From: Candidatus Borkfalkia faecigallinarum
GTDB taxonomy: Bacteria; Bacillota; Clostridia; Christensenellales; Borkfalkiaceae
DNA: 39,781 nt
Reading direction: 5' to 3'
Assembly: GCA_019114625.1 (NCBI GenBank)
Contig: DXFD01000015.1
Location: 1-39,781 of the forward strand
The notes below the pieces were generated by a model that made no database searches, was not told where the DNA came from, and was given only the letters and a program-made list of their open reading frames with translations. Each line of letters starts with the position of its first letter. The stretch's first letter is position 1. Both the position numbers and the translations under genes were made by a program. Positions 15,576 through 36,957 of the stretch are shown here, one piece after another.

Positions 15576-15664
15576 TCCATTTATAAACCGTTCGCCCGAT
15601 CGGTCTGTAAATAACCGTTAATCGAAATCTGTATCTTGCAAATGCGCACATCCTCGGCTATTAT
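15576..15664 (+). promoter_or_regulatory. GH3-1 promoter (TTGCAA-N17-TATTAT) with shared upstream module
   Basis: TCCATTTATAAACCGTTCGCCCGATCGGTCTGTAAATAACCGTTAATCGAAATCTGTATCTTGCAAATGCGCACATCCTCGGCTATTAT. Confidence 0.8.
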
Positions 15665-15718
15665 AGAATTGCTTGTTCAAAGCCGCAGCAGAACATCAAA
15701 AATTATTGGAGGTATTCA

Positions 15719-18700
15719 ATGAAAGAACAACGTTTCAAGATCATTACGATCGTCTCGGTTGCCATCATCCTTGCGATCGTTCTGGCTCTGAATGTCGCAG
15801 TCGGGATCTTTTCGCCCCTGCTGGACAAGTTCGTCGTCGGCTACCAGGAAGGCGAATCTTCCGGCGCGGCGAGAGCGGAAGGCGTGGCGCTGTCCGAACA
15901 GATCCAGGCGGAAGGCACGGTCCTGGTGCAGAACAACGACAACGTGCTCCCGCTGAGCAAGGACGATGCGCCGCGCGTGAACGTGTTCGGCTGGGCGGTG
16001 ACCGACTGGGTCATCAGCGGCTCCGGCTCGGGCCAGGTCAAGAGAGCGGGCGCGGTCGACCTGTTGGAAGCGCTCGAAGAATACGGCATCGAATACAACA
16101 CCGAACTGACGGATATGTACGAGGGCTACCGCCCCAACCGCGAGTTCAGCATCGCCGGCAGCCACGCGGGCAGCGAGACGGGCGCCAACCCCGGTTCCAG
16201 CGGCTCGCTGCACAGCTTCAACTATGAGTTCAGCCGCCTCTACGAGCCGGACATCGAGGACCGCAACTACTATTCCGATTCGCTTTTGAGCAACGCGGAG
16301 AGCTATTCGGATACGGCGCTGGTCGTCATCGGCAGAGTTTCGGGCGAGAGCAACGACTCGCCGAAGGTGCAGTACAAGGACTGCTCGGGCAAGGGCAAGC
16401 CGAGCCCGCAGTACATCGACGAGACGCGCACCTATCTCGAGATCTCGACCGAGGAAGAGGCCCTGCTCGAATACGTCGGCGCGACGTATGAGAACGTGAT
16501 CGTCCTCATCAACTCCCCCAACGTGATGGAGCTCGGCTTCATGGAGACCATCCCCGGCCTCGACGCCTGCCTGGTCGTCGCCACGACGGGTACCGCGGGC
16601 GCACGGGCGATCCCCAAGATCCTCTACGGCGACGTCTCCCCTTCCGGCCGCCTCGCCGACACCTTCGCGTACGACCTGTCCACCTCCTCGACCTACGTCG
16701 ACACCGGTTCGGGCAACGATACGACCAACTTCTACACCAACGGCGCGGGCCTGTACCCCACCACCACCACCCACACGAACGGCAGCTCCGTCGTCCCCTA
16801 TGAGGGCGTCGCCTACACCGATTACCGCGAGAGCGTCTATCTGGGCTACCGCTGGTACGAGACGGCGGACGAGGCGGGCTTCTGGGATTCCGACTTCGCC
16901 AAAAACCGGTGGGGCATCAGCAACGGCTATGAAGACGTCGTGCAGTACCCCTTCGGCTACGGCCTGTCCTACACCGAATTTGAATGGACGATCACCTACA
17001 TGGAGATCCCCAACAACCAGTCCCTCTCCATCGACGACGTGATCAAAGTGGGCGTGACGGTCAAGAACGTCGGCGATGTGCCCGGTCAGGACGTCGTGCA
17101 GCTGTATTACAGCGCCCCCTACAACGAGATCGAAAAATCCTCCCTCGTCCTCGGCGCGTTCGGCAAGACGCAGAACGTCCTGCAGCCGGGCGATTCGGAA
17201 TATGTGGAGCTGACGATGAAGGTCTCGGATATGGCGTCCTACGACTACGAGGGCTTCCTCGTCCCCGGCGGCGGCTATGTCCTCGAAGAGGGCGACTATA
17301 CCCTCTCCCTGCGCTCGGATGCGCACACCCTCGCGAGCGAAAAGATCGTCGGCGGGTCGGGCAGCGTCCACAACGACGCGATCATCCACTACTCGGTCGG
17401 CGACGACACCAATTATATGCAGGATGAAGTGTACAACCGCTTCACCGGCGAGGGCACGACGGACGGCGTCGCCATCGACGGCAACAGCGACGGCTCGGCG
17501 GAGATCACCTATCTGACCCGCGCCGACTTTGAAGGCACCTTCCCCGCCGAACAGGGCGAAAACCGCGCGATGACCGAGGAGATCATGGCGCTCAACCTCT
17601 TCACCGAGGAGATGGCGGACGAATGGGCGGCGGAGCGCTCGGATGCGGAACCCGTCACCTTCGGCGACACTTCGCAGGGCGGGCTCGTGTACGAGAACGA
17701 CCAGATCAACGACTACGGGATGCAGCTCGGCCTCGACTACGACGACCCCGAATGGGAAGAGCTGCTCAACCGCATCACCAAGCAGGAGATGCTCAGCCTC
17801 GTGCTCAGCTCTTACACCGAGACGCAGGCGATCCCCTCCATCGGCAAGCCCAAGACCAACGACTTCGACGGCCCCAACCAGCCGGGCAGCTTCTCCGACG
17901 GCATCACCGCCGAGGCGACGGGCTTCAGCTCCATCGTGCTCGCGCAGTCGTGGAACGACGAGCTCGCGTACAGCATGGGCTCCGCCTTCGCGACCGAATG
18001 CGTCAGCTACGGCATCCAGGGCCTGTACGGGCCGGGCGTGAACCTGCACCGTTCCCCCTTCGGCGGCAGAAACTACGAGTATTACTCGGAAGACCCGCTG
18101 ATCTCGGGCATCATGTGCGCGAACTTCGTCGAAGCCGCCAAGAACAAGGGCGTGTTCTGCTACCTCAAGCACATCTGCCTCTATGAAACGGAAAGCGGCC
18201 GCGACGGCATGTACACCTGGCTGACCGAGCAGGCGCTGCGCGAGCTGTACCTGCGCCCGTTTGAACTCGCCGTCAAGGAAGGCGGCTCGACCGCGATCAT
18301 GACCTCCTACGGCCGCATCGGCGCCGTCTGGACGGGCGCGAGCGAAGCGCTCCTGCAGGAAGTGATCACGGGCGAGTGGGGCTTCCGCGGCGCGTTCCTG
18401 ACCGACTACTCCGACCACCCCGAATTTATGGATCCCGACGCGATGATCCGCGCGGGCGGCGACCTGTTCATGCGCGTGGGCGGCGGCTCCTTCGGTTATG
18501 AAACGGAATCCAACGCATTCGACCAGGCGCTGCGCGCCGCCACGAAGGACGTCGTCTATATGTGGCTGAACGCGCTGGCGACCAACGCGGACTACAACGC
18601 GAAGATCGAGAGCGGCGAGATCGTGGACAGCATCGTCATCCCGACCAGCCCGAAGCTGAACTTCCGCTGGTACATCCCCGTGCTCATCGCCGTTGACGTG

Positions 18701-18766
18701 ATCGCCGTTGCCGGCTGCGCCGTCTGGCTGTTCTTCGCGCTCCGGAAAAAACCGGACCAAGAGTGA
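15719..18766 (+). CDS. GH3 beta-glucosidase-family protein, domain-permuted, TM at both ends (GH3-1)
   Basis: N-terminal TM IITIVSVAIILAIVLALNVAVGIF; GH3 C-domain first, then FnIII-like, then TIM barrel (GPGVNLHRSPFGGRNYEYYSEDPLISG, FCYLKHICLYE, GFRGAFLTDYSD); C-terminal TM YIPVLIAVDVIAVAGCAVWLFFAL. Confidence 0.94.
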   Translation: MKEQRFKIITIVSVAIILAIVLALNVAVGIFSPLLDKFVVGYQEGESSGAARAEGVALSEQIQAEGTVLVQNNDNVLPLSKDDAPRVNVFGWAVTDWVISGSGSGQVKRAGAVDLLEALEEYGIEYNTELTDMYEGYRPNREFSIAGSHAGSETGANPGSSGSLHSFNYEFSRLYEPDIEDRNYYSDSLLSNAESYSDTALVVIGRVSGESNDSPKVQYKDCSGKGKPSPQYIDETRTYLEISTEEEALLEYVGATYENVIVLINSPNVMELGFMETIPGLDACLVVATTGTAGARAIPKILYGDVSPSGRLADTFAYDLSTSSTYVDTGSGNDTTNFYTNGAGLYPTTTTHTNGSSVVPYEGVAYTDYRESVYLGYRWYETADEAGFWDSDFAKNRWGISNGYEDVVQYPFGYGLSYTEFEWTITYMEIPNNQSLSIDDVIKVGVTVKNVGDVPGQDVVQLYYSAPYNEIEKSSLVLGAFGKTQNVLQPGDSEYVELTMKVSDMASYDYEGFLVPGGGYVLEEGDYTLSLRSDAHTLASEKIVGGSGSVHNDAIIHYSVGDDTNYMQDEVYNRFTGEGTTDGVAIDGNSDGSAEITYLTRADFEGTFPAEQGENRAMTEEIMALNLFTEEMADEWAAERSDAEPVTFGDTSQGGLVYENDQINDYGMQLGLDYDDPEWEELLNRITKQEMLSLVLSSYTETQAIPSIGKPKTNDFDGPNQPGSFSDGITAEATGFSSIVLAQSWNDELAYSMGSAFATECVSYGIQGLYGPGVNLHRSPFGGRNYEYYSEDPLISGIMCANFVEAAKNKGVFCYLKHICLYETESGRDGMYTWLTEQALRELYLRPFELAVKEGGSTAIMTSYGRIGAVWTGASEALLQEVITGEWGFRGAFLTDYSDHPEFMDPDAMIRAGGDLFMRVGGGSFGYETESNAFDQALRAATKDVVYMWLNALATNADYNAKIESGEIVDSIVIPTSPKLNFRWYIPVLIAVDVIAVAGCAVWLFFALRKKPDQE

Positions 18767-18837
18767 CCGTCCGACCGGACCGGGGAGGCCTCCCCCGCGG
18801 AGCCGCCTCTCCCGCCCGGCCGCCCGAACGGATAAGG

Positions 18838-18872
18838 AAGCCCTCCGCTGCACCGGCAGCGGAGGGCTTTGC
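18838..18872 (+). terminator. terminator of GH3-1
   Basis: AAGCCCTCCGCTGC ACCG GCAGCGGAGGGCTTTG. Confidence 0.8.
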
Positions 18873-18934
18873 GTTGGGGGGCATCTTGGCGGATCCGCCG
18901 AACTTCGATCGCAGGGAGATGAGGGCAAGCCCCT

Positions 18935-20374
18935 TCATTCCCCGCTGCCGATCCCGGAAAGGTATCTTTCGGTAAACTCGCGCTCGCCGTCGGCGATCAG
19001 CGTGACGATATTGCTGGTCGTCGCGTCGAACAGCATCTTGTCAAACAGCGAATCGAGCAGGGTGTACAGCTCTTCGCGGGCGTGCGGCTCGCCCGAGCGC
19101 TTGCGCGCGTCGAACCCGTCGTAAAATTCCCGGATGTACGCCGCGTCCACGTTCTGAAATTCCGTATAGACCGCGCGCAGATGCGCCTCGTACGCCTCGT
19201 CCTCCCAGACGGAGAGGACGGGAAAGACGGGGACGCCCTGCCGGCTGCGCTCGCGGATGTTGTGCTCGACGACGGAAAAAGTACCTTCGCCCGCGTCCGG
19301 CCCGTATCCCATGAACTGCAAAAAGAGGAAGGCGCCCTCCGTCTGCGCGCTGTCGGCGCGGGAACTGACGGCAAAGACGGTGCCGCCCCAGACGGAGGAG
19401 CTGTTCACCCCTTCCGCCGAAGGCATCGGCACGAAGGCGATGCTGCCGTTCAAGCCGGGCTCCGCGGCGAGCGCCGTGGAGAGGCTGTCGCTCCGGCAGA
19501 AGGCGACGGCGATCTCGCCCGCCGCCATCGCCGCCGCCCAGTCCTCCACGCCGTATTGCGCGGAATGATCGATACAGCCCTCCAGCGACATCGAGCGCAC
19601 CCAGCGCATCGCGTCGCCGAAGGCGTCGGTGTTGAGGACGAGCCGCCAATTCCCCGCCTCGTCGCGCTGTTCCAGCCGCTCGCTGCCGAAGTTGTAGACC
19701 ATGTCCAGGAACAGCCTGCCGCAGTCGGCGTCGCCGGAGGGGATCATGGCGCCGTACGCCCCGCCGGACGTGTGCCGCACGACCGCTTCGGACGCGGCGA
19801 GAAGTTCGGAAAAGGTGTCCGGGTACAGCGGCTCGCCCTGCGCATCGTACAGGATGTAGCCGCCCTGCGCGTCCTGCCCGATGACGCCCGCCTCGCACAG
19901 CAGCGGCAGGTTGAGGACCATGCCCGCCGCGTACTGCTCGGCGGGGACGCCGTACACGCGGCCGCCGTCGGAGATCTCTTCCAGAAAGAAGGCGTCCGCC
20001 TTGTCCAGCCAGCCGAGCGCCTTTAACTCGGCGGAGACGTCCCGGATGTGCCCGTTGCGGTAAGCGCCGCGCGCGTAGGACGCGTCCATTTCAAAGAGGA
20101 TGGGGAGTTGGCCGGACGCGAATTTGGCGACCGCCGTCTCCGGATCGTAGACGTACGGGGAGACCTCGATCTCGTACTGCGGATAGGCCTCCTCGAAGGC
20201 GGCGATGCGCTCCTCGTAAAATTCCGCGTCATAGACGGAGGAGCCCTGCCACATGCCGATCGCGATCCTGGTCTTGGGCGGGGCGCTCCCGCAAGAAGAA
20301 AGGACGGCGCAGGCACAGACGCAGAGTGCCGATATCGCCGCACACAGAGTAAACTTGATCGATTTTTTGGGCAT
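18935..20374 (-). CDS. extracellular solute-binding lipoprotein (family 1-type, ABC sugar binding)
   Basis: MPKKSIKFTLCAAISALCVCACAVLSSCGSAPPKTRIAIGMWQGSSVYDAEFYEERIAAFEEAYPQYEIEVSPYVYDPETAVAKFASGQLPILFEMDASY... Confidence 0.88.
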   Translation of the reverse strand: MPKKSIKFTLCAAISALCVCACAVLSSCGSAPPKTRIAIGMWQGSSVYDAEFYEERIAAFEEAYPQYEIEVSPYVYDPETAVAKFASGQLPILFEMDASYARGAYRNGHIRDVSAELKALGWLDKADAFFLEEISDGGRVYGVPAEQYAAGMVLNLPLLCEAGVIGQDAQGGYILYDAQGEPLYPDTFSELLAASEAVVRHTSGGAYGAMIPSGDADCGRLFLDMVYNFGSERLEQRDEAGNWRLVLNTDAFGDAMRWVRSMSLEGCIDHSAQYGVEDWAAAMAAGEIAVAFCRSDSLSTALAAEPGLNGSIAFVPMPSAEGVNSSSVWGGTVFAVSSRADSAQTEGAFLFLQFMGYGPDAGEGTFSVVEHNIRERSRQGVPVFPVLSVWEDEAYEAHLRAVYTEFQNVDAAYIREFYDGFDARKRSGEPHAREELYTLLDSLFDKMLFDATTSNIVTLIADGEREFTERYLSGIGSGE

Positions 20375-20378
20375 CGGA

Positions 20379-20407
20379 TTGAATTTTCTCCAAAAATGTG
20401 CTATAAT
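20379..20407 (+). promoter_or_regulatory. promoter of 20419 sensor gene
   Basis: TTGAAT - N17 - TATAAT; the -10 ends only 11 nt before ATG. Confidence 0.65.
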
Positions 20408-20418
20408 CGTGGTAAGCT

Positions 20419-21384
20419 ATGTTTCAGAAGACGAAAAAACGGTTTTATCGGACGTTGATGCTGATCGCGCTGCTGCTGGTCGTCCTGATCGTCGCGCCGA
20501 GCATCTTCCTGTTCACCAATATTTTTTATTCGACCTACGAATCGATGGCGAAAAACCAGCTGGACCGCGGCATCTCGGCGGGGCGCATGTTCGTCGACTC
20601 GATCATGTCCACGACGGACAACCTCGCGCTCAACCGGCAGCTCATCGAGACGCTGGACGGGACGCGGTCGGGCTCGCTCGCGCCCCTTCTGGACTCCACC
20701 TGCACCTATTCGCTCGACATCGCCGCCATCACCGTGTACGGCGAAAACGGCGCCGTCTATACCTCGTCCGGCGTGACCAACCCGCCGAGCGCGGCGGAGC
20801 TGGCATCGCTCGCCGACATCGCCGAATTTTTCGCGGATGAGGACGCGGACGAATACGTCTCGCTGCGCACGTCCGCGATCATCAAGGCGTACGACAACGC
20901 CCCCTACGACGCGCGGGCGGGGATCATCAGCTACTGCCGCAAGGTCTATGCCGAGGACGGCTCCTTGCTCGGCTGCATCTTTGCGGATATCTTCCCGCAC
21001 GAGCTGTTCGAGCGCTTCAACATGACGGACGGCGGGGCGGACGGGAGCGTGATCCTGATCGCCTTCGGCGGCGGCCACTTCTCCTCCGAAGGCGGGGAGG
21101 CGGCGCAGGAATATCTGCGCGCCGAGGCGGATACGTCCGTCGGCGGGCGGCTGGTCATCGCCAGCACCCGCAACTTTTACGGCGGGACCATCCGCGCCGC
21201 CGTGCCACTCGCCCCGTTTTATCAGAATACCCTGCTCATCGCGGCGATCATCCTGCTGTGCGGCGGGGCGCTGCTGTACGCGGCGCATTGGATCGCGCGC
21301 ATCGCCGCCGACTGGGTGACCAACCGCCTGAACGGGCTGCTGCAGCAGATGATCGAATCCTCCCGCAAGATCAACAGCCTGTGA
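20419..21384 (+). CDS. YesM-type sensor protein lacking kinase domains (TM-Cache-like-TM only)
   Basis: MFQKTKKRFYRTLMLIALLLVVLIVAPSIFLFTNIFYSTYESMAKNQLDRGISAGRMFVDSIMSTTDNLALNRQLIETL...LLIAAIILLCGGALLYAAHWIARIAADWVTNRLNGLLQQMIESSRKINSL*; no H-box or HATPase. Confidence 0.75.
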   Translation: MFQKTKKRFYRTLMLIALLLVVLIVAPSIFLFTNIFYSTYESMAKNQLDRGISAGRMFVDSIMSTTDNLALNRQLIETLDGTRSGSLAPLLDSTCTYSLDIAAITVYGENGAVYTSSGVTNPPSAAELASLADIAEFFADEDADEYVSLRTSAIIKAYDNAPYDARAGIISYCRKVYAEDGSLLGCIFADIFPHELFERFNMTDGGADGSVILIAFGGGHFSSEGGEAAQEYLRAEADTSVGGRLVIASTRNFYGGTIRAAVPLAPFYQNTLLIAAIILLCGGALLYAAHWIARIAADWVTNRLNGLLQQMIESSRKINSL

Positions 21385-21488
21385 CCGCGGGCGCGCCTGA
21401 CGGTCAGATTTATGACCGCGGAAACGCTTTCGGGGCGAGGTCGGCAGACGTGCGGCCGCAGACGCGCTCGACGGGCGAACGCGCGGCC

Positions 21489-23168
21489 TCAGACGCGCTT
21501 TTGGATGCGGATGGTGACCTTTGTGCCCTCGCCCTTGCGCGAGAACACTTCCAGCCCGTACGCCTCCCCATACTCGAGCTTGATCCGCTCGTTGACGTTT
21601 TTCAGTCCGAACCCGCTGAGGTCGGACTTTTTCTTATGCGTGACCGTGTCGTCGCTGACGTCGAAGCCGATGCCGTCGTCCTCGACTTCGAACACGATAT
21701 CCCCGCCGACCAGCTTGGTGCGGATGATCAGATGGCCCTTGCGGTCCTCGAAGGCGTACTTGACGGCGTTCTCCACGATGGGCTGCAGGATCAGTTTGAG
21801 CGTCGAATAGTTGAGGAGGCTCTCGTCCGTCTCGAAGCGCACGTCCACCCTGTCCGGGAAGCGGATCTTGTCGATCTCCAAAAAGTGCGCGGTCAGCTCG
21901 AGCTCCTCGCCGACCGTGATGAACTTGTCCCCCTTGTGCAGCGAGAGGCGGAAAAATTTGGCGAGGTTGACGGCCAGCTTCTCGATCTCCGGCTCCTTTT
22001 TCAGGCGCGCCATCCAGGAGACGGCGTCCAGCGTGTTGTACAGGAAGTGCGGGTTGATCTGCATCTGCAGCGCTTCCAGCTCGAGCTGGCGCTGCACCTC
22101 GGCGTCCTCGCGGTTTTTCTGGATGAGGCGGAAGAGGTGGGTGATCACCTCGTCGTACTTCTCTTCCAGCATATACAGCTCGTCCCCCTCGTCCGGCTTC
22201 CACAGCCCCTTCCTGCCCGTGCGGATGGTCTCCTCGATGTTCGCGTTGAGTTCGGCGATCGGCTTGGAGAGCTTTTTGGCGCGCAGGACGGCGACGAGCA
22301 CGCCGACCAGAAAGACGGTGACCATGATGCCGACCAGCAGCCAGGTCAGAAGGTCGAACGTACCGTAATAATGGCCGTAATCGAGGATGCTGACGAGGTA
22401 ATATTCCCCGCCGTACCGCTCGTTCAGCCGCTGCATCGGGCCGACGTTGACGATCTTCTTCTCGTCGCCCATCTGCAGCGTGCGGAGGCTCGACCCGCCG
22501 TCCAGCTCGTAGATATTTTCATAAAAATACAATTTTCCCACGTAGTCCTGATCGACGTGGGAAAAGACATAGCCGTCCTTGCGGATGATATAGGAATACC
22601 CCTCCTCCGTACCGAACCCGGTCAGGTAGTAGGAGATCGCCGTTTCGGGCATGAAAAAGACGAAGCAGCCCTTCGTTTCGGTCACGCTGTTGTCCAGACA
22701 GATGACGAAGGCGTGGCAGCCGCTCGCATAGCCGCCGACGACGACGCGGTTTTTGTTCTGCTCCGCCGCCAGAAAGACCTCCGCCGCGGGCGCGGCGTAG
22801 CCGTTGACGGAGAGATAGCCGCCCTCGTCCTGCCAGCCGACGTCGCTGAACGTATCCGACTGGGCGAGCGTGGCGAGATCTTTGAGCGCGCGCATCCGCA
22901 CGGCGTAGCCGTTGTCGCTGTTCAGATCTTGCAGCGCGTCCGCGTTGGTGTCGCGGACGATGCGCGCATAGGCGTAAGCGACCTCGTCGATCGCGGCGAC
23001 GACGTTCGAATCCACGTCGCCGTGATAGGCGTCGAGGTTGTCGCCGATGTAGCCGCGCATGGACGAGGTCATGGAGAGCTGTACGACGGCGAGCATGACG
23101 GCGAAGATGCCCGTCAGCACCGCGGTGAACAGCAGGATGAATTTCGTGCTCAGTTTAGCTTTCTTCAT
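21489..23168 (-). CDS. sensor histidine kinase, YesM/LytS class
   Basis: H-box INPHFLYNTLDAVSWMARLKKEPEIEKLAVNLAKFFRLSL; HATPase PIVENAVKYAFEDRKGHLIIRTK...VEDDGIGFDV. Confidence 0.95.
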   Translation of the reverse strand: MKKAKLSTKFILLFTAVLTGIFAVMLAVVQLSMTSSMRGYIGDNLDAYHGDVDSNVVAAIDEVAYAYARIVRDTNADALQDLNSDNGYAVRMRALKDLATLAQSDTFSDVGWQDEGGYLSVNGYAAPAAEVFLAAEQNKNRVVVGGYASGCHAFVICLDNSVTETKGCFVFFMPETAISYYLTGFGTEEGYSYIIRKDGYVFSHVDQDYVGKLYFYENIYELDGGSSLRTLQMGDEKKIVNVGPMQRLNERYGGEYYLVSILDYGHYYGTFDLLTWLLVGIMVTVFLVGVLVAVLRAKKLSKPIAELNANIEETIRTGRKGLWKPDEGDELYMLEEKYDEVITHLFRLIQKNREDAEVQRQLELEALQMQINPHFLYNTLDAVSWMARLKKEPEIEKLAVNLAKFFRLSLHKGDKFITVGEELELTAHFLEIDKIRFPDRVDVRFETDESLLNYSTLKLILQPIVENAVKYAFEDRKGHLIIRTKLVGGDIVFEVEDDGIGFDVSDDTVTHKKKSDLSGFGLKNVNERIKLEYGEAYGLEVFSRKGEGTKVTIRIQKRV

Positions 23169-24369
23169 GGATCAAATCGATATATTCGCTCGGCGTGATC
23201 CCGACCCGCTCCTTGAATACCTGGCCGAAATACCGCCCGTCCGCAAACCCGACCGCCGCAGCGATCTCGTTGATGCGCATCTTGCCCTGCGCGAGCAGTT
23301 CTTTCGCCTTCGCGATCCTGTAATAGGTGAGGCACTCGTTGAAGGTGGCGCCCGTCTCCTCTTTGAATTCGTGCATCAGGTGGCTTTCGGAGATGAAGAG
23401 CTTGTCCGCCGCCCACTTGACCGTGATCTTTTCCGAATAATGCGCGACGATGAGCGCGAGCGCGTCTTCGGCGATCTTTTTCAGCTTCTTGCCGCCGCGC
23501 ATCCCCGCCTCCGCAAAGGAGAACACGCCGCCCACTTCGAACACGGGCGAGGCGGCGGCCTTCGCCTGCGCCGCGGCCGTGCACAGGTCGGCGTCCGCGC
23601 CGAACGCGCCGCTCAGCCCGACGCAGGCGAAGGAAGCGTTCTTCCCGCATTCGCCGTACAGCCGCTCGGCACACTCGCGCAGCGCGTCCGCGTCGGTCAG
23701 GCCGGTCACGATGATGAATTTTTCCCGCGAGCAATCGCCCACCGCCTTAAAATTGTCCAGCGCGCGCAGCAGGGCGCGGTACAGTTCCTCGAACGCCGCG
23801 TCGAGCATGCGCAGCGCCTTCCCGTAGAGGACGGTGCCCGAACGGGGCAGGGAAATGTTGAGCACGGAGAGCTGGTCGCGCAGGGAGCGGTCGTCCACCC
23901 CCTCCTCCAGTTTGCGGAAATAGATCTCTTTGATGTACGCCGCGCCCGAGGAGAGGCTCTGCAGGGCGTTGCTCTTTTTGCGGCGCTCTTCCAGCACCGT
24001 GATGGTCTCCGCCGCCTTGCGGGTGAGCAGGTCGTTCTCTTCCGGCTTCAGCACATAGCCGGAGACGCCGTACTCCATCGCCTTGCGGACGTACTCGAAG
24101 TCGCTGTACCCGCTGTAAAAGATGACGGCGCCGTCAAAATTCATCTCCGCGAGCTTTTCCGCCATCGCCAGCCCGTCCATGACGGGCATGCGCACGTCGG
24201 AAATGATCAGGTCGGGGCGGCAGCGCTCGACCTCGGCGATCGCCTGCCTGCCGTTCTCGCACTCGGCGACGATCTCCGCGTCCAGCACGGACCAGTCGAC
24301 CGTCTCCCGCAGCCCCCTGCGCACCAGATATTCGTCATCGACAATCAGTATTTTATATTTCGCCGCCAT
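23155..24369 (-). CDS. response regulator with AraC-type DNA-binding domain (YesN class)
   Basis: REC: YKILIVDDEYLVRRGLRETVDW...PDLIISDVRMPVMDGL; C-terminal HTH: VKWAADKLFISESHLMHEFKEETGATFNECLTYYRIAKAKELLAQGKMRINEIAAAVGFADGRYFGQVFKERVGITPSEY. Overlaps the kinase start by 14 bp. Confidence 0.96.
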   Translation of the reverse strand: MAAKYKILIVDDEYLVRRGLRETVDWSVLDAEIVAECENGRQAIAEVERCRPDLIISDVRMPVMDGLAMAEKLAEMNFDGAVIFYSGYSDFEYVRKAMEYGVSGYVLKPEENDLLTRKAAETITVLEERRKKSNALQSLSSGAAYIKEIYFRKLEEGVDDRSLRDQLSVLNISLPRSGTVLYGKALRMLDAAFEELYRALLRALDNFKAVGDCSREKFIIVTGLTDADALRECAERLYGECGKNASFACVGLSGAFGADADLCTAAAQAKAAASPVFEVGGVFSFAEAGMRGGKKLKKIAEDALALIVAHYSEKITVKWAADKLFISESHLMHEFKEETGATFNECLTYYRIAKAKELLAQGKMRINEIAAAVGFADGRYFGQVFKERVGITPSEYIDLIHEES

Positions 24370-24437: not shown

Positions 24438-24977
24438 TCAGACCGCGCTCACCCCGACGGGGGTGAGGAAGATCTTGAAGATCGCCTGCGGCATGACGGC
24501 GCTGATCAGGTGGAACACCTCCGGGCGGCTCTCCTTGCAGCCGCCGGAAAGCCAGCGCAGGATGAGGTCGGTCACGTTCGCGCAGTACAGGCGGATGGCG
24601 AGGGTATTCATCGCCGCGTCCGGTTCGCCGCCGCAGTTGCGGACAAAAAATTCCGCAAGCAGGCGGTTGAAATAGTTTTTGGGCGAGTTGATGTCCTCGG
24701 AGTCGAACGCGTGCAGGATGACCTTGTCGTGCTTTTCAAAGACGGCGAGGCACTGCATGATCAGCTCTTCCCAGTTCTTGCTCTCTTCCGGGATGCCGCC
24801 GTAGATGTAGTTATGCAGGCTCTGGCAGCACAGATGGTACTTGTCGATGTAATGCTTATAAAACGTACCCTTGCAGGAGCCCACCTCTTCGATAATTTCC
24901 GCTACGGTGATGCTGTCGATGCCCTTGCGCTCCAAGAGCGCGAGCATACCCTGTTCAAAGTATTTTTTCATGTTCAT
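24438..24977 (-). CDS. TetR/AcrR family transcriptional regulator
   Basis: MNMKKYFEQGMLALLERKGIDSITVAEIIEEVGSCKGTFYKHYIDKYHLC...; start at 24977 with SD GGAAGGTG. Confidence 0.88.
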   Translation of the reverse strand: MNMKKYFEQGMLALLERKGIDSITVAEIIEEVGSCKGTFYKHYIDKYHLCCQSLHNYIYGGIPEESKNWEELIMQCLAVFEKHDKVILHAFDSEDINSPKNYFNRLLAEFFVRNCGGEPDAAMNTLAIRLYCANVTDLILRWLSGGCKESRPEVFHLISAVMPQAIFKIFLTPVGVSAV

Positions 24978-25035
24978 GATCACACCTTCCTGCCCGAGCG
25001 CGCGGCACGGCGGCGCGGGGTCTTTTCTTGGGTGC

Positions 25036-25078
25036 ATTGTAACACACATTCCCCCGTTTGTCTATATGTAAAGACAAA
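25036..25078 (-). promoter_or_regulatory. TetR-gene promoter with 22-bp palindromic operator candidate over the -35
   Basis: Plus TTTGTCT-ATATGTAA-AGACAAA (25057-25078); minus promoter TAGACA-N17-TACAAT. Confidence 0.65.
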
Positions 25079-25299
25079 GTGTGCATACTTTTCGACAGTT
25101 GCAACAGTTTTACCATACTCCTGCACGATCTCCGGTCATTTTTAGACTGCTTTTGCCGAATGTCCTCTTTCTCCCCCCTTTTGTCCGATCTGTCTGCCCC
25201 GCCCCCGACACAAACGGGCATAATTGCGGCACGATCTGTAATGCCCCGCGCGCGGGGCAGCGGCAAGCCCGCGCCCGCCGCGGCGGCGCGGCGGGCAGG

Positions 25300-27611: not shown

Positions 27612-27648
27612 TAATACGGCCGCGGACAAATTGTCCGCGACCGTATTA
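27612..27648 (-). promoter_or_regulatory. 37-bp inverted repeat overlapping -10/+1 of the 27516 gene promoter
   Basis: TAATACGG-c-CGCGGACA-aat-TGTCCGCG-a-CCGTATTA; minus promoter TTTACA-N17-TATAAT whose -10 runs into the repeat. Confidence 0.7.
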
Positions 27649-27785: not shown

Positions 27786-29966
27786 TTAAGCAGCCGCTTC
27801 GACGTAGATGGAGACCAGCTGCGTGCCCCAGCCCGTGAACACGCCCAGGCGATACTGCACGGCCGTGTCGCCGATCGTGCCCGCGACGGTCGCCTCCGTG
27901 TCGATGTTGGCGGAGGTCAGGTTGGAACCGGTATTGCCGTCCAGGCTGAAGTGGGAGAAGAGGACTTCGCCGACCGCGTTCTCGCGCGCGGAGAGGTCGA
28001 GGTAGATCGTCCACTCGCCGCCTTCCGCCGTCACGAAGATGGTCGCCGCGCCGTCCTCGCCGCCGAGGGAGAGGACTGTCGGGCTGCCCCAGTCGCTGTT
28101 GGTGGAGCCGGAGCCGCCGTCCGCGTTGTTCTGGATGTCCGCATACAGATCCTGCGTCAGATACGCGATGACGTCGTCGGGGGTGCCGAGCTCGGCAATG
28201 TACGTGCCCCGGATGGCGAGGCAGGGCTTGCCTTCATACGTGGCGAGGGTGACGCCCTCCGTCTTGACCGCCTCGTTCTGCGCGCGGTAGACGATGCCGC
28301 CCCACTTGCCGAGGCCGACATAGGAGACCCGCGTGCCGTCCACGTTGGAGATGCGCAGCGCCTTCTGGTTTTCGATCAGGCCGATGTTGACCGTCTCGAG
28401 GTCGGTGTTGATGCAGCCGGCGTTGAGCAGGTTGCCGTCGCCGTCTTTATAGAGGACGGTGGGATCGGACTCGGACTCGACGATGCTGAAGTGGCAGTAG
28501 CCGTCCGTCTCGAGGCTGTAATTCGCAAAGTTGAAGGTCACGCTGTAAGTGCCGTCCGCCGCGATGACGCAATACTGCACGTCGCTGGGGGAGACGCAGC
28601 CCTCGAAGTCGATGCGAACGGTCTTGCCCGCCCAGTCTTCGGCGTCGACCTTGCCGTCGATGGTCAGGACGGCGTTGCCCTCCGCATCCTGCGAGCCTGT
28701 CAGCGTGTATTCGTTCATGAAGTAGTTGGAGTACAGCGCCTTGAGCAGGCCGTTGTAGGTGGCAAAGCTATACGAGAAGTCGCCGACGACGATGATCTGC
28801 TCGGTATCGACGAAGTCTTCGGGATAGTCGGAGAGCAGGATCTCCTGCGTTTCGGCGCTTTCGCCCTCGCCCGCGACGAACTTGATGTCCATCCACTTGC
28901 CGAGGTATTCCGCCTCGACCAGCTTGCGCATGTCGAATTTCAGTTCAAACGGGTCGCCGCGCTTGGTGTTCTCGTCGCCGACGGTGTCCCCCTTGAGCTC
29001 GACCATGTCGTTGCCTTCATACAGATACAGGTACGCGGTCTGCGCGGCGCGGAAGGTGCCGGAGATGACCAGGTACGGGACGTCGCCGTCCACTTCGTAA
29101 TAGATGGATTCGAGCGCCAGCAGGACGGGCTTGTAGCTCGCGGTGTAGACGACGCTGGACTCGTTGTCCGCGGCGATCTCGGTCGCGCCGTTGCTCCAGC
29201 CGGTGAAGATGTAGTCGCCCTCGGTGCCCCTCGACCACTGTTCGGCGGTCGGCAGCGCGACGTTTTCGGTCAGGGACGCGTACGAGAACGCGATGACGTC
29301 CGCGTCATCGGACGAGATCATGTGCAGTTCGTCGTTCGCTTCGAGCGCCGCGACGTAGTCCGCCGCGATCTCGCCGCCGTTCGGATCGATCGTGATCTTG
29401 ACTTCGACGGGAGCGCTCAGCTGCACGGGGTCGGAATCGACGCCGCGGAAGCGGACGGAGAAGGAGGTGTCGCCCAGCGCGAACGCGCTGCCGCTCTCAT
29501 AGACGATGGAGTAGTCGGTCTCGGCGGCGGTGCGGCCGGAACCGTACGCCACTTCGACGACCATCCCGTCGGTATCCACCTTTTCACCCGCATAGTAGGT
29601 CATCGTCGTCGGGTTGGTCTTGACCGTGACGGAAGAGACCTGTTCGATCGTCTCGACCTCGATGGTCGTGTCCGCCTTGACGTCGACGCTGTAATTGCCC
29701 TCTTTGTCGGCGCGCAGCGTGCGGTCGTTCGCGCGGACGGAGTCGACCTCATAGCCGCTGTTTGCCGCGACTTGGAAGGTGAGCGTCGTGCCTTCCGCAA
29801 CTTCGGAAGGAAGTTCGTCGTGATCGGTGACCGTGACGGTCGCGTTTTCGCTGACGTTCCAGGTGACTGCATACTTGACGCCGCCGCACGCGGTGAGCGC
29901 GCCGAAGCAAAGAACGGCGACGAGCGCGAGGACGAGTACGATCAGCCCTCTTTTTCTGTTTGCCAT
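27786..29966 (-). CDS. large lipoprotein with Big_3-like domain and repeated C-terminal domain
   Basis: MANRKRGLIVLVLALVAVLCFGALTACGG...; VKTNPTTMTYYAGEKVDTDGMVVEVAYGSG; repeat units ending GLGKWGGIVYRAQ and GWGTQLVSIYVEAA. Confidence 0.8.
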   Translation of the reverse strand: MANRKRGLIVLVLALVAVLCFGALTACGGVKYAVTWNVSENATVTVTDHDELPSEVAEGTTLTFQVAANSGYEVDSVRANDRTLRADKEGNYSVDVKADTTIEVETIEQVSSVTVKTNPTTMTYYAGEKVDTDGMVVEVAYGSGRTAAETDYSIVYESGSAFALGDTSFSVRFRGVDSDPVQLSAPVEVKITIDPNGGEIAADYVAALEANDELHMISSDDADVIAFSYASLTENVALPTAEQWSRGTEGDYIFTGWSNGATEIAADNESSVVYTASYKPVLLALESIYYEVDGDVPYLVISGTFRAAQTAYLYLYEGNDMVELKGDTVGDENTKRGDPFELKFDMRKLVEAEYLGKWMDIKFVAGEGESAETQEILLSDYPEDFVDTEQIIVVGDFSYSFATYNGLLKALYSNYFMNEYTLTGSQDAEGNAVLTIDGKVDAEDWAGKTVRIDFEGCVSPSDVQYCVIAADGTYSVTFNFANYSLETDGYCHFSIVESESDPTVLYKDGDGNLLNAGCINTDLETVNIGLIENQKALRISNVDGTRVSYVGLGKWGGIVYRAQNEAVKTEGVTLATYEGKPCLAIRGTYIAELGTPDDVIAYLTQDLYADIQNNADGGSGSTNSDWGSPTVLSLGGEDGAATIFVTAEGGEWTIYLDLSARENAVGEVLFSHFSLDGNTGSNLTSANIDTEATVAGTIGDTAVQYRLGVFTGWGTQLVSIYVEAAA

Positions 29967-30032
29967 AATGTTCTCCTTTCCTTATTTTTTGCGCGCAGAG
30001 ATGCCCCGCGCGCTGATTGTCGGTACAGTTTC

Positions 30033-30120
30033 AGTTTACCGCATCCCGCCCCAAATAGCAATAAACGATTTTTCGAATCGGTATAAAAATAAACCCTCTC
30101 CCATTTCGTTCAAAAATGAA
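30033..30120 (-). promoter_or_regulatory. promoter of 29966 lipoprotein (TTGCTA-N17-TAAACT) with shared upstream module
   Basis: Minus TTCATTTTTGAACGAAATGGGAGAGGGTTTATTTTTATACCGATTCGAAAAATCGTTTATTGCTATTTGGGGCGGGATGCGGTAAACT. Confidence 0.7.
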
Positions 30121-30134
30121 CGCTCCGTAAAGAC

Positions 30135-30194
30135 GCGGCGCGGGCGCAGCCGGGCAGCGCATGCCCGTAAGAGGCGGCGCGGGCGCAGCCGGGC
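30135..30194. repeat. 21-bp direct repeat GCGGCGCGGGCGCAGCCGGGC, period 39
   Basis: Copies 30135-30155 and 30174-30194, just beyond the stop of the ThuA-like gene. Confidence 0.88.
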
Positions 30195-30247
30195 GGGATC
30201 GCTCGGCCGCCTGCCGCGGGAACGCTCGGCAGCCCGCGCAAGAGCGT

Positions 30248-31252: not shown

Positions 31253-31416
31253 GTCTTGCCGCCTCCCTTTCTTTTCTGCAAACACTATACCACATCCGAC
31301 CCGCCCGCACAATAAACGGTTTTTTGTTTCCGTCTGCTTTTGACGCTCCCGCCCGATACGGACTAATTTTGCGCCTTCCGCAAAAAGCGCCCGCCTTTGC
31401 CGCGCGGACAGGCAAA

Positions 31417-31440
31417 GAAGCGCCCCTGCGGGGGCGCTTC
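31417..31440 (-). terminator. hairpin after 31467 gene
   Basis: GAAGCGCCCC-TGCG-GGGGCGCTTC perfect stem; weak T-run on minus strand. Confidence 0.65.
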
Positions 31441-31466
31441 CTCCTTGTGCGATTTTTGCGCGCGGG

Positions 31467-33539
31467 TCACGCCGCCTGCGAAACTTTCAGGCCGACGCAG
31501 CCCCAGTACGTGGTCTTGTCGTAGATCAGTTCGTAAGTCACGCCGTTTTGCTCGACGCTGTCGGTGAAGGTCTCGATGTCCGGCTTGAAGTCGTTCCAGC
31601 CGTTGCTCCCGGTGTTCGCGCTCTGCTCTTTGAGGTGGGTCGTGTAGGTGAACGCGGGGACGTCGGTGATGTCCATCACGATCTCGAAGGTCTTGCCGTC
31701 CTCGCCGAGGTTGACCTCGTGCGTGTTGTTGCGCACGATCGCCCATGCCTGGTTCGTGGTGCCGGGCGTCTCGTTCGGGTTCTCCTGGATGTCGAAGTAG
31801 TAGTAATTTTTCAGGGCTTTTTCCACGACTTCCTCGATCTCGTCGTCGGTGTAGCCGTCGTTGGTGTACTCGACGCTGCCGCCCTTGACGACGTACAGGA
31901 CTTTGCCGTCGCGCACTTCGAGGCCGATGTCGGTGCCGAGGGTGACCGCATCGAGGGTGACGGTCGCGTCGCTGGAAACTTTCAGCCCGACGCAGCCCCA
32001 GCACTCTTCCTGTGCGCTGCTGCCCGCCGCATAGACGACCTCGTAGGTGATGTGGCCGATCTTGACCGAGCCGCCCGTGACGGAGTCGCCGACCTGGTCC
32101 TGATTGAGGTCGAGGATGTTGCCGTTTTCGTCGCGCCCGAAGTGGGACGCGTAGGTGTCCGGGGTCTTGTCGCCGAGGTCGCTCACGTCCACGCGCAGCG
32201 TGAAGGTGCCGGCGCCGTCGCCCTTGACATAGTCAAAATCCCATGCGTCGGAGGACTGGAAGTAGCGGCTGCCCGTGTTCGTAATGGACTGCAAATCAAA
32301 CGCCAGCGCGGACAGCAGGGCGCCTTCCAGCGTCGCGTCGGCGTGGTTGGCGAACGTGAAGCTGCCCTCCACGACGTAGTACGGGACGCCGCCCTCCTCT
32401 TCGACGGAGACGTCCTCCGCCTTGACGCTCAGTTCGGGCGTCACGGGCGTGATGGCGATGTCGCTCGTCATGACGGTCATGTTGTCGATGTTGGCGGTGA
32501 ATTTCCCGGAGAAGTCTGCCTGGCTGGTGTCGGTATAGTCGTGCGGGATGAAGGTGATGCTCACGACGTTGATGCCCGCGACGAGCTCGATGTCGCCGAA
32601 CACGACGTCCTGCCAATTGAACCACAGGTCGGCGTTGGGTTCGCCGCCCTCTTCGCCGCCGCCGGGGAGGACGACGTCGTCGGGGATGGTCTGCGCCACG
32701 CCGTTGACTTCGACCGTCATGATCTTGTTGAGCTGGCAGTCGCCCATCCAGATCGGGGTCCAGTTGCTGTCCTCTTTCAGGTACTGGGAGGCGAGGCGGA
32801 AGATGATCTCGGCGGAGCCGGCCTTGTTTGCGCTGAACAGGAAGGACAGGGTGTCGCCCGACTTCATGTCGCCGACATAGCCGCCGCCCGTCGCGTCGGC
32901 GGAATCGTTGAATTCCTTGCCGGAGCCGGAATCGATGATCCCGTCCTCCGCTTCGACGAAGATGCCCGCCGTCGTGGTGATGGGCTCTTCGAGCACGACG
33001 TCGCCGACCTTGATCTCGACGGACGTCTGGCCCTCCGCGATCGGCGTCTCGTCCACGGTCACGGCGGAGTCTTCGGCGGTGATGTCCTCGCTCGAGCCGT
33101 CCTCGTAGGTGACGGTGATGACCATTCCCGTCGGATCGAACACTTCGCCGGGAAGGTATTCCGTTTTTGTTGCGTGCGTCTTGATGGCGGCCTCGACCAC
33201 GTCGTTGGTGACGGTGATGCGCTGGCGCACCGTCTTGGTCACTTCGTTTTCGGTGTAAGAGACGGTGACGTTGCGGTCGGACGTTTTCAGCTCTCCGGTC
33301 AGATCGTACGTCCAATCCTCCGCGGTCAGCGTCTTTTCCGTCTCGTCTTCATACTTGGCGGTGACGACCATGCCTGCGGGGTCGAATTTCTCGCCCGCGA
33401 CGTACTCCGTCTTGGTCGGCGGGGTCGTGATCTCGATGGACGAGAGCTCCGCGCTCGCGCCGCAGGCGGCCAGGGGTATCAGGCAGGACAGGACCATCGC
33501 GATGGCCAGAAGCGCCGATACTGCTCTTTTGCGTAACAT
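31467..33539 (-). CDS. large lipoprotein: two Big_3 domains, CBM-like module, two repeated C-terminal domains
   Basis: MLRKRAVSALLAIAMVLSCLIPLAACGAS; TKTEYVAGEKFDPAGMVVTAKYEDE and TKTEYLPGEVFDPTGMVITVTYEDGS; ECWGCVGLKVSSD and YWGCVGLKVSQAA. Confidence 0.85.
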   Translation of the reverse strand: MLRKRAVSALLAIAMVLSCLIPLAACGASAELSSIEITTPPTKTEYVAGEKFDPAGMVVTAKYEDETEKTLTAEDWTYDLTGELKTSDRNVTVSYTENEVTKTVRQRITVTNDVVEAAIKTHATKTEYLPGEVFDPTGMVITVTYEDGSSEDITAEDSAVTVDETPIAEGQTSVEIKVGDVVLEEPITTTAGIFVEAEDGIIDSGSGKEFNDSADATGGGYVGDMKSGDTLSFLFSANKAGSAEIIFRLASQYLKEDSNWTPIWMGDCQLNKIMTVEVNGVAQTIPDDVVLPGGGEEGGEPNADLWFNWQDVVFGDIELVAGINVVSITFIPHDYTDTSQADFSGKFTANIDNMTVMTSDIAITPVTPELSVKAEDVSVEEEGGVPYYVVEGSFTFANHADATLEGALLSALAFDLQSITNTGSRYFQSSDAWDFDYVKGDGAGTFTLRVDVSDLGDKTPDTYASHFGRDENGNILDLNQDQVGDSVTGGSVKIGHITYEVVYAAGSSAQEECWGCVGLKVSSDATVTLDAVTLGTDIGLEVRDGKVLYVVKGGSVEYTNDGYTDDEIEEVVEKALKNYYYFDIQENPNETPGTTNQAWAIVRNNTHEVNLGEDGKTFEIVMDITDVPAFTYTTHLKEQSANTGSNGWNDFKPDIETFTDSVEQNGVTYELIYDKTTYWGCVGLKVSQAA

Positions 33540-33575
33540 GATTTTCCTCCATTGAATTTTTTTTGCATATGTCTT

Positions 33576-33745
33576 CCGCCCCGCCGCGCCCACAGGCGCG
33601 GCGGGACAGGCATATCCCGCTCGGCTTTGCCCCGCCCGCGAACGGGCGGCAAAGCGGATGCCCCCGCCCGCAGACGGGCGGGGCGTCCGGGCGAGCCGCC
33701 GACGCGGCCCGCCCTCCCCCGCCGCGCCCGCAAGCGGGCGCGGCG
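33576..33745. repeat. cluster of four GC hairpins between GH3-2 and the 33539 gene
   Basis: CGCCGCGCC-CACA-GGCGCGGCG; CCGCCCGC-GAAC-GGGCGG; CCCCGCCCGC-AGAC-GGGCGGGG; CGCGCCCGC-AA-GCGGGCGCG. Confidence 0.75.
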
Positions 33746-33755
33746 CCTCTTGTCT

Positions 33756-36725
33756 TTACGCTTCCTGCGCCTTCTTCTTGGGCTTGAACAGGAAGAACAG
33801 CCAGACCGCCATGCCCGCGACGACGATCACGTCGATCAGGACGAGCAGGATGATCCACCAGGCAAACGGCTCTTCGCGCGTCTTGACGCCGACGTTGGCG
33901 TTGAAGATGGTGTCGAGCGAATCCCTGTCAAAGGTGTTGTAGTAATGGATGGTGTCGACCAGCGTGTACAGCACGTTGTGCGCCGAATTGCGCGCGCAGG
34001 CGACGTCCGTCGCATCCGAGGCGTTCAGAGCGCCGTTAATGCGCGTGTTCGGGTTGAGCCAGATGTCGTTGCCGGCGCGCACACCCTGGCGGGGGTTCAT
34101 CGCGCCGGGGTTGCCGCCATCCGACCAGTCGGTGATGACGGTGCCGCGGAAGCCCCATTCCCCGCGCAGGATGTCGACCAGCAGCGCGTGGTTGGAACCC
34201 GTCCAGATGGAGCCGAGGTTGTTGAAGGAGGACATGACCGCGTTGGAACCGCCCTCCTTGACGGCGATCTCGAACGGTTTGAGGTAGATCTCGCGCAGCA
34301 CCTGCTCGGGCAGCCAGGTGTTCCAGTCGCGGCCGTTCGGGCCGGACTCGCTGACGACGAAGTGCTTCATGTAGCAGTACAGGCCGTTGATCTTGGCGCC
34401 GTGGATGACGTTGGCCGCCAGGTTGCCGGAGAGGATGGGATCCTCCGAATAATATTCGTAGTTACGGGAGGTATAGTTGGTGCGGTGCAGGTTGATGCCC
34501 GGCGCATACCAGCCGTTGATTTCGGTCAGGCTCGCCTCGTTGCCCATGGACAGGCCCATCTGCAGGAGCAGATCCTTGTTCCAGGAGCAGCCGAGCAGGC
34601 ACTCGCACGGATACGCCGTCCAGGTTTCCTTCACCTCGGTGCCTTCCCAAGCACCGGACAGGGTGTTGGTGTTGAAGCCCGCGGGGCCGTCGAAGTCCGC
34701 CTGGCGCACTTTGCCGACCGACTCGATGGCGGGGGTGAAGAAGCCGCTGAAATGAACGAGGTCCATAAGCTCGCTCACGGTGATCTGGTTGAGCAGCGTC
34801 TCCCATTCGGGCGCGTCGTAGTCGGACAGCGTCGCGAACAATTCGTCGTTATACGCCAGCGACTCCCCTTCGCCGGTCGTCAGCAGCAGCGTATCGGCGC
34901 CGTTGTCCACGCCCTGCGTGGGAGCGGTGTCGGTGTCATAGGACGGATCGTACCAGTTCGCCGCGATCCGGTTGGCTTCCGCCGCGTTGGTGGGCAGGGC
35001 CGCGCGCTCGTCGGGGAAGGTGCCTTCAAAATCCGCACGGGAGAGATATTCCTGCGTCACGCCCGCGGTGCTGCCGTCGATGGGAACGCCCGCGTAAGCG
35101 TCGTCGCCCGTAAAGAGGGGTTCGACCGTCTCGCCCGTCACGGGGTCATCGGGGAAGGTGATGTCCTCCGCGATAGCGAAATCGATGGTCGCATTCTCCA
35201 TCGTCTCGCCGTCGTTCGCCTTCAGCGTGTGCGAATCGGTGCGCAGGCTGATGGTGTAGGTGCCGGCATCCAGCTCGTAGGTGGACGCGCCGTTGTTGTT
35301 GGCGTCCGTCGCGTCGAAGGAAGCCATGTCGTACGCGGTGAAAGTCAGCGTCAGCTCCTCGCTCTGGCCGGGCTCGAGGGAGATGGTCTTGTCGAAATCG
35401 AGCAGGTTGACTTCCGCCTTCTCGATCTCGCCGGAGATGTATTCGGGGGTGTAATACAGCTGGACGACGTCCTTGCCGTACACGCTGCCCGTGTTGGTGA
35501 CGACCACTTTCAAAGTGATCGTGGTATTCTTGTCGGCGTCGGTCAGATCGATCGCCGAGCCGAGCGAGGCTTCCTCCTCGCCGACGGCGATGCTCATGAC
35601 CTCCCACTCAAACGTCGTGTACGAGAGGCCGAAGCCGAAGGGGAACTGCACCTGGTCCTCGTACGAGGTGCCCTTCGCCTCGAAATAGCCGTCCGCGTCC
35701 GCGGTCTCGTACCAGCGGTAGCCGTAGTACAGGCCCTCGGAGTACTGGATGTTGGTGCCCGAGTTGCCGCTCGACGCGCTCTCGGTGTTGTTGAAGGCGG
35801 GGTCGTTGGACGGATCGTACGAATAGAGGTCGGACAGCTTGCCCGAGGGGGAGAACTGATCGCCTTTGAGCGTCTCGCCCTTGAGGATCTCGCCGATGGC
35901 GATGGCGCCCGACTGGCCGGTCAGGCCGACGTACATGGCGGCGTCGACATACTCGTCGTCCAAAAAGCCGCAGTGCATCGCGTTGGAGGTGTTCAGCAGC
36001 ACGATGACCTTGTCAAAGCGGTCGGTGACTTCGTCCAGAAGCTCCTGCTCGGGATCGGTGATCTCGAGGTAGGTCTTGTCGCGGTTGACGGCGCCCTGCG
36101 TCTGCTGGTGGGGCTGCTCGCCGATGTTTTCACCGCCCAGGCGGCTGAACACGACGATCGCGACGTCCGAATACTCCTCCGCCTGGCGGAACTGCTCTTC
36201 GGTGATCTCCGGCTCGTCCAGCCAGTAGGCGTTGCCCGAATTGCCGCCGCGGCCGACTTTGAATGCGTCATAGACCTTTTCCAGCTCGGTATTGTACTCG
36301 ATGCCGTTCTCCTCCAGCGCGCCCTGCAGGGCGATCGCCTTGTTTTCGGAGATGGTGGAGGAACCGCTGCCGATGCCCTTCATCAAAAAGCCGTCAAAGG
36401 AAGCGGCGTCGGAAGGGTCATAGGCGCTGAAGCCGAAGAGGTTGACCTTCAGCTCGTCCTCCGTCAGGGGCAGGGCGGGCTCGCCGTCCGAATCCTCCTG
36501 GTTTTTGAGGAGCACGATGCTGTCCTCCGCCAACGTGCGGACGAGCTCGTCGCTCTGCTGCAATGCCTGCTGCGTCTCTTCGCCGCTGAAGTCGGTCGAA
36601 TCCGCGTTGAAGGCATTGGTGATGATGCCGGCGAACATGCCGGCGACCACGTTGCCGGCGATCAGCGCAGCCAAAATGATCGCAATGGCCGCGATACAGA
36701 TCGCCTTTTTTACCTTGTCTGTCAT
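33756..36725 (-). CDS. GH3 beta-glucosidase-family protein, domain-permuted, TM at both ends (GH3-2)
   Basis: N-terminal TM AICIAAIAIILAALIAGNVVAGMF; barrel at C-terminal half: APGINLHRTNYTSRNYEYYSEDPILSG, YCYMKHFVVSESGPNGRDWNTWL, GFRGTVITDWSDGG; C-terminal TM FAWWIILLVLIDVIVVAGMAVWLFFLF. Confidence 0.95.
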   Translation of the reverse strand: MTDKVKKAICIAAIAIILAALIAGNVVAGMFAGIITNAFNADSTDFSGEETQQALQQSDELVRTLAEDSIVLLKNQEDSDGEPALPLTEDELKVNLFGFSAYDPSDAASFDGFLMKGIGSGSSTISENKAIALQGALEENGIEYNTELEKVYDAFKVGRGGNSGNAYWLDEPEITEEQFRQAEEYSDVAIVVFSRLGGENIGEQPHQQTQGAVNRDKTYLEITDPEQELLDEVTDRFDKVIVLLNTSNAMHCGFLDDEYVDAAMYVGLTGQSGAIAIGEILKGETLKGDQFSPSGKLSDLYSYDPSNDPAFNNTESASSGNSGTNIQYSEGLYYGYRWYETADADGYFEAKGTSYEDQVQFPFGFGLSYTTFEWEVMSIAVGEEEASLGSAIDLTDADKNTTITLKVVVTNTGSVYGKDVVQLYYTPEYISGEIEKAEVNLLDFDKTISLEPGQSEELTLTFTAYDMASFDATDANNNGASTYELDAGTYTISLRTDSHTLKANDGETMENATIDFAIAEDITFPDDPVTGETVEPLFTGDDAYAGVPIDGSTAGVTQEYLSRADFEGTFPDERAALPTNAAEANRIAANWYDPSYDTDTAPTQGVDNGADTLLLTTGEGESLAYNDELFATLSDYDAPEWETLLNQITVSELMDLVHFSGFFTPAIESVGKVRQADFDGPAGFNTNTLSGAWEGTEVKETWTAYPCECLLGCSWNKDLLLQMGLSMGNEASLTEINGWYAPGINLHRTNYTSRNYEYYSEDPILSGNLAANVIHGAKINGLYCYMKHFVVSESGPNGRDWNTWLPEQVLREIYLKPFEIAVKEGGSNAVMSSFNNLGSIWTGSNHALLVDILRGEWGFRGTVITDWSDGGNPGAMNPRQGVRAGNDIWLNPNTRINGALNASDATDVACARNSAHNVLYTLVDTIHYYNTFDRDSLDTIFNANVGVKTREEPFAWWIILLVLIDVIVVAGMAVWLFFLFKPKKKAQEA

Positions 36726-36867
36726 GGTTTTTATTCTCCTTTATTCCGTTCAAATTGAAAATGGATTGATTGCCTGCCGAAAACGTCTCCCTTTGCCGAT
36801 CCCTCCTTTTTTTGCGAAATTTCCGATCTGCGGGACATTTGCCCCGGGAAGATACTCTGTCAAGTCT

Positions 36868-36957
36868 ATGATATCCGAGAAATCCGCCTTTTTCAAGATA
36901 CGGATCTTCCGCGGACGGCTATTTACAGACCATTCGCGCCAACCGTCCAGAAATGAA
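36868..36957 (-). promoter_or_regulatory. GH3-2 promoter (TTGAAA-N17-TATCAT) with shared upstream module
   Basis: Minus TTCATTTCTGGACGGTTGGCGCGAATGGTCTGTAAATAGCCGTCCGCGGAAGATCCGTATCTTGAAAAAGGCGGATTTCTCGGATATCAT. Confidence 0.8.

Follow-up and report, generated by a model that had tools for sequence, protein, structure and literature searches.

Do genes scattered over both strands of one glycan island share a promoter signal, and which regulator would read it? The question is raised by a stretch of 39,781 nucleotides from Candidatus Borkfalkia faecigallinarum (the window, meaning the whole stretch of DNA that was analysed). An earlier note had described one promoter module ahead of three of its transcription units, those of two GH3 proteins (GH3-1 and GH3-2) and of a lipoprotein (LP), and had named the YesN-type regulator encoded nearby as its candidate reader. 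We found the three quoted strings without a mismatch at 15576-15641 (+), 30056-30120 (-) and 36891-36957 (-), and the -35 and -10 elements are 17 nt apart in the GH3-1, LP and GH3-2 promoters alike. The CATTT and CCG elements are colinear as described; the distance from the C of CATTT to CCG, given as 36 nt, is 37 nt in all three. In the GH3-1 promoter, the direct repeats ATAAACCGTT (15583-15592) and AATAACCGTT (15610-15619) lie 27 bp apart, as claimed. All three sites precede genes for secreted or membrane-anchored proteins, and secreted-glycan genes are enriched downstream of module sites, the outcome that the note had named as support. Each of the three sites thus stands, whereas the list was incomplete: the promoters of a ThuA-domain gene and of a GH5 gene also carry the module. 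The genes and the modules with their promoters are as follows.

15719-18766 (+): GH3-1 gene
27786-29966 (-): LP (lipoprotein) gene
33756-36725 (-): GH3-2 gene
15566-15664 (+): GH3-1 module and promoter; A box CATTTATAAACCGTT 15578-15592, B box GTCTGTAAATAACCGTT 15603-15619; -35 TTGCAA 15636-15641, 17 nt, -10 TATTAT 15659-15664
15527-15625 (-): GH5 module and promoter, divergent from GH3-1 and on the same DNA; -35 TTTACT 15555-15550, -10 TAGAAT 15532-15527
30033-30131 (-): LP module and promoter; A box 30118-30103, B box GTTTATTTTTATACCGATT 30094-30076; -35 TTGCTA 30061-30056, 17 nt, -10 TAAACT 30038-30033
31284-31382 (-): ThuA-domain gene, module and promoter; -35 TTGTGC 31312-31307, -10 TATAGT 31289-31284, start ATG at about 31252
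36868-36966 (-): GH3-2 module and promoter; A box CATTTCTGGACGGTT 36955-36941, B box GTCTGTAAATAGCCGTC 36930-36914; -35 TTGAAA 36896-36891, 17 nt, -10 TATCAT 36873-36868
37111-37153 (-): tentative degenerate reversed copy (CATTTTTTGGAAGG..GTCTGCAAACG), found by eye

In order to define the module, we aligned the operators without gaps on the -35 element, MAFFT alignments having put the half-sites in the wrong place. The line-up reads ATTTwTanACCgTT, GTTTAwAwTATACCgaTT, AAAAAnTGTaTaTTGa, 17 nt, TAtAAT. The predicted operator is thus a pair of direct-repeat half-sites, about ATTTwTanACCgTT and about GTTTAwAwTATACCgaTT, 27-28 bp apart, the second ending some 15-17 bp upstream of the -35 element; the half-sites are followed by an A-rich stretch resembling a proximal UP element and then by a putative sigma-A promoter with 17-bp spacing. 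Conserved positions reach about 60 nt upstream of the -35 element. Compared with dinucleotide shuffles, the 28 bp direct repeat gives z 6.7 over 13 operators; the six window promoters alone give z 4.4, and 12 weaker sites from across the family, both G627 sites included, give a non-significant z of 1.5. The repeat is almost perfect in genome G446 (TTAAAATATACTGTTAA / TTAAAAATATACTATTAA). Over eight operators it scores 51/112, against 47/112 for a quasi-palindromic reading of the GH3-class sites. We did not prefer the inverted-repeat reading, which is strong in GH3-class sites only and is explained by divergent use: the GH5/GH3-1 half-sites can be read on both strands, so that a single stretch can serve both divergent promoters. 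The divergent arrangement is also present in G284. With about 7 nt between the -10 element of GH5 and its likely ATG at 15520, the transcript would be nearly leaderless.

The own genome was searched with patterns and with models. The gapped pattern CATTTNTNNACN{11,17}GTNTN{6,10}CCG matches four times in the window, where 0.02 matches are expected from shuffles, and zero times outside the window across the own 1.50 Mb genome; the fourth match (30559-) was taken as chance, as it lies inside the ThuA coding sequence. Two models were used as well, the sequence-only R1, trained on the three window sites and two orthologous sites of Candidatus Coproplasma avistercoris (L052), and R2, trained on eight sites. 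Beyond the trained sites, the top matches of the R1 and R2 scans in the own genome are the GH5 and ThuA promoters. As held-out matches, GH5 scores 13.7 bits with R1 and 18.5 bits with R2 (E 2.6e-3), and ThuA 20.8 bits with R2 (E 5e-4 in the own genome); held-out PWMs rank them 4 and 5, respectively, of 79366 positions in the window. When an entire gene class was withheld from training, most sites still ranked 1-6 per locus; GH3-2 was lost, a 1-nt shift taking it out of the ungapped PWM. The equal density in random intergenic DNA that would have spoken against the module is absent from the genome scan. The reversed copy at 37111-37153, which precedes the promoter that serves the 37241-38998 (+) gene, has no PWM support (rank 331 in the window); the G284 orthologue of that gene has a clear module (L145:9870-9968-, score 38).

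A shared module could simply reflect recent copying of whole promoters, which was part of the other refuting outcome named in the earlier note. Pairwise comparison of the window promoters showed identity at background outside the module, so recent whole-promoter copying is not its origin; between the GH3-1 and GH3-2 proteins, identity is just 35%. As had been proposed, one direct-repeat module is shared by transcription units that lie scattered over the two strands.

The module recurs in other genomes. Orthologues of the YesN-type regulator, in syntenic islands, are 64-67% identical in L052, in L053 (a locus of genome G062) and in G284, and 48% identical in G446. R1, trained on window and L052 sites only, retrieved the unseen LP promoter of G062 (E 1.7e-5); its best match among 395 other genomes of the order is the promoter of the GH3-1 orthologue of G284 (E 7.2e-5), and the G284 LP promoter was also retrieved unseen (E 0.0097). 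G284 is the only other genome of the 396 in the order with a close regulator orthologue. Among 398 genomes of the family, sites with E<1e-9 occur only in four genomes, all with regulator orthologues of at least 64% identity, every such site having been in the R2 training set and orthologous sites not being independent of one another. At 19 family loci from genomes without a regulator orthologue at E<=1e-60, GH3/LP/GH5/H homologues show enrichment of the module PWM in their upstream DNA when set against other genes preceded by intergenic DNA (p 5e-4); the enrichment has p 0.015 by the boxes alone and p 0.034 by the -35/-10 columns alone. G627, which has no clear regulator orthologue, carries two strong sites (scores 48.8 and 45.7), and module-like sites occur also in G208, G563 and other genomes without an orthologue at that threshold. 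The family loci with the module and without the orthologue encode no AraC HTH. The LP orthologue in G751, about 51-54% identical, has no module; this genome is 61% complete and yielded no regulator orthologue, a control that speaks for the YesN-type regulator as reader. Relatives of the SBP type with a roughly 40% identical regulator gave no module either. Exact and loosened patterns gave mostly chance matches across relatives. A G446:C65 match lies upstream of a small membrane gene and GH3, and a match in G000:C86, at the promoter of a DNA topoisomerase subunit, was rejected as it fits only the promoter-proximal part of the model.

We propose, with a probability of roughly 0.8, that the module is an activator-type operator of at least five promoters (GH5, GH3-1, LP, ThuA and GH3-2), making the island one regulon. 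That the glycan island genes form one regulon is, taken by itself, predicted with still greater confidence; this part of the earlier proposal holds as a prediction of co-regulation, and the evidence backs the YesN-type regulator as reader only in part. Both half-sites would be occupied by a DNA-binding protein, most probably the response regulator of a glycan-responsive two-component system, which, once bound, would recruit RNA polymerase; an activator role would fit, as the second half-site lies just upstream of the -35 element. For the glycan island of an uncultured bacterium, the proposal names the genes expected to act jointly, GH5 and ThuA being newly added to them.

The window encodes several proteins that could be connected with the module, and it contains two further repeats.

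23155-24369 (-): YesN-type response regulator, REC and AraC HTH (Pfam)
21489-23168 (-): YesM-type histidine kinase, the regulator's partner (Pfam)
24438-25049 (-): TetR-family regulator (Pfam)
25057-25078: palindrome TTTGTCTATATGTAAAGACAAA in the TetR gene's own promoter
25082-25120 (+): tandem repeat TGCATACTTTTCGACAGTTGC/AACAGTTTTACCATACTC, 21 bp, upstream of the TetR gene

The local YesN-type response regulator may be the protein that recognizes the module and turns on all five units, a reading to which we give clearly less than an even chance. The distribution described above argues for it, the E<1e-9 sites being confined to genomes with close orthologues and the best held-out site belonging to the sole other genome of the order that has one (G284). 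The REC aspartate D57 is conserved as well, and direct repeats upstream of -35 suit AraC-type response regulators. The regulator family, however, very likely has a conserved operator of its own that differs from the module. Tandem GCAGTTTTAYCNAC motifs at 20 bp are found in the SBP promoters of relatives with about 40% identical regulators (z 6.5; L054-L066, L087, L170 and L171), and the motif recurs at 21-22 bp upstream of TetR throughout the close clade, window included (in relatives at L052 7652-, L053 2839-, L145 17044- and L161 2569-). The PWMs of the two sets correlate at r 0.78, and the GCAGTTTTAYCNAC repeat at 25082-25120 is likely the operator of this regulator family. In PWM comparison, the module half-sites showed no significant match to the GCAGTTTTAYCNAC motif (p 0.13-0.51). 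The first half-site of the TetR-upstream repeat nevertheless scores in the top 0.07-0.33% with the module PWM in four species, a point in favor of the YesN-type regulator. Several AraC-type sites have a 21 bp period (PMC3870299), and the 27-28 bp of the module departs from it. Module copies in G627, G208, G563 and others without a clear orthologue also count against this regulator, and the TetR gene co-occurs with the module equally well. Thus the strongest sites do accompany orthologues of at least 64% identity, as the attribution in the earlier note would have it, but the different family operator and the module copies lacking a clear orthologue do not agree with it.

Alternatively, another trans-acting regulator encoded elsewhere, for example of the LytTR type, would read the module family-wide, and the YesN-type protein would control only TetR or SBP, an explanation that falls just a little short of even odds. 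The enrichment at the 19 loci without the YesN-type regulator, the strong G627 sites and the lack of an AraC HTH at those loci point to it, as does the presence, close to GH3 genes of some relatives, of response regulators of the LytTR type and of GHKL-like kinases. LytTR sites usually consist of two 9-bp repeats with a period of about 21 bp, unlike the module with its 27-28 bp, and the ACCGTT-like half-sites resemble the LytTR consensus. LytTR response regulators such as AgrA likewise bind direct repeats upstream of promoters (PMC4227749). On the other hand, the window has no LytTR gene, all three LytTR proteins that this genome has are encoded outside the island and the comparison gave no clear orthologue set for them in the other module genomes, and the strongest sites track the clade of the YesN-type regulator. 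Moreover, other YesN-type proteins occur in nearly all genomes, so genomes that lack the orthologue could make use of a paralogue instead. Binding of the module by the TetR-family protein is improbable. Its gene lies in the syntenic islands of all five module genomes (window, L052, L053/L109, G284 and G446) and was not detected in the 40% relatives without the module, but palindromes of the GGACAAA/TTTGTCC type stand in the promoter of the TetR gene itself in the window, L052, L053 and G284, a typical autoregulatory site that is absent from the module promoters. The module is no inverted repeat over a promoter and lies upstream of -35, whereas repressor sites normally overlap the promoter; the palindrome suggests that TetR would act at another site. 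Still less probable is the absence of any specific operator, the promoters being just strong, AT-rich and UP-element-like in a GC-rich genome. The A-rich stretch, the AT-rich boxes and the weak enrichment of the -35/-10 columns in relatives would fit, but not the conserved AC and CCG positions in a 27-28 bp register, the conservation far upstream of -35, the held-out retrieval and the absence from the genome's other promoters.

Tentatively, the module may be viewed as a glycan operator found across the family, whose direct repeats have an unusual 28-bp period and whose reader would be other than the adjacent two-component system, the island then carrying two stacked circuits. If so, the YesN-type regulator would act on GCAG repeats of 20-22 bp to control TetR or SBP, and a second regulator would act on the module to control the enzymes. 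Two concrete operator motifs emerge, the module with its 28-bp period and the GCAG repeat at 20-22 bp, and the case cautions against simply taking the closest regulator gene for the reader of a shared promoter motif.

Comparable systems share parts of this arrangement. In Caldicellulosiruptor bescii, sites placed upstream of -35 as in the module led to the prediction that regulators with AraC-type domains, of the single-component and the two-component kind, are activators; their local glycan regulons, likewise predicted by comparative genomics, show tandem repeats separated by large spacers ahead of the promoter. Each motif there is tied to a cognate local regulator, whereas the operator best conserved with the local regulator of the window differs from the module (PMC8579813). 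XydS/R of Clostridium cellulolyticum also places a YesN/AraC-type response regulator over separately located glycan-degradation genes, with direct and inverted repeats upstream of -35 as a further likeness; the repeat sequences differ, and binding and expression were demonstrated for XydS/R, whereas the module is predicted from sequence (PMC3572039). CuaDSR of Ruminiclostridium cellulolyticum shares the solute-binding protein beside a histidine kinase and a YesN/AraC response regulator, whereas the window has in addition a stand-alone dCache-like membrane protein and the TetR gene, and no transporter operon was found as a target (PMC10384115). The match of this membrane protein (20419-21384, +) to dCache is weak (1.7e-7) and falls below the curated cut-off; its gene is divergent from that of the SBP, and the ORF on the minus strand at 20401-21288 is probably spurious.

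Several other features were observed. At L109 7512-7700 (+) and L145 9881-10120 (+), an additional copy of the module precedes a short segment that contains CTCCTTATT and a strong hairpin, immediately before the LP promoter; this unit may be a gene for a small RNA belonging to the regulon. LytTR response regulators lie near GH3, GH5 or LP-type genes at L272 (G061:C45:19206-19454), L236, L249 and L253, some of them accompanied by GHKL-like kinases. A perfect GGACAAATTGTCC palindrome at 27624-27636 of the window, within a longer inverted repeat, stands just past a strong promoter upstream of the 25300-27609 gene and resembles the palindrome of the TetR promoter. Neither LP nor the YesN-type regulator was found in any of the same-genus genomes searched. 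LP homologues in L239, L243 and L251 lie near a release-factor gene, and the release-factor gene of the window (7437-8540) is also near the island. Beside the island, three tandem copies of the 5' part of a tRNA-Thr gene (spacing 67-68) occupy 11427-11598, the tRNA-Thr gene itself being at 11574-11649. In both the GH3-1 and GH3-2 proteins, the C-terminal GH3 domain precedes the N-terminal one.
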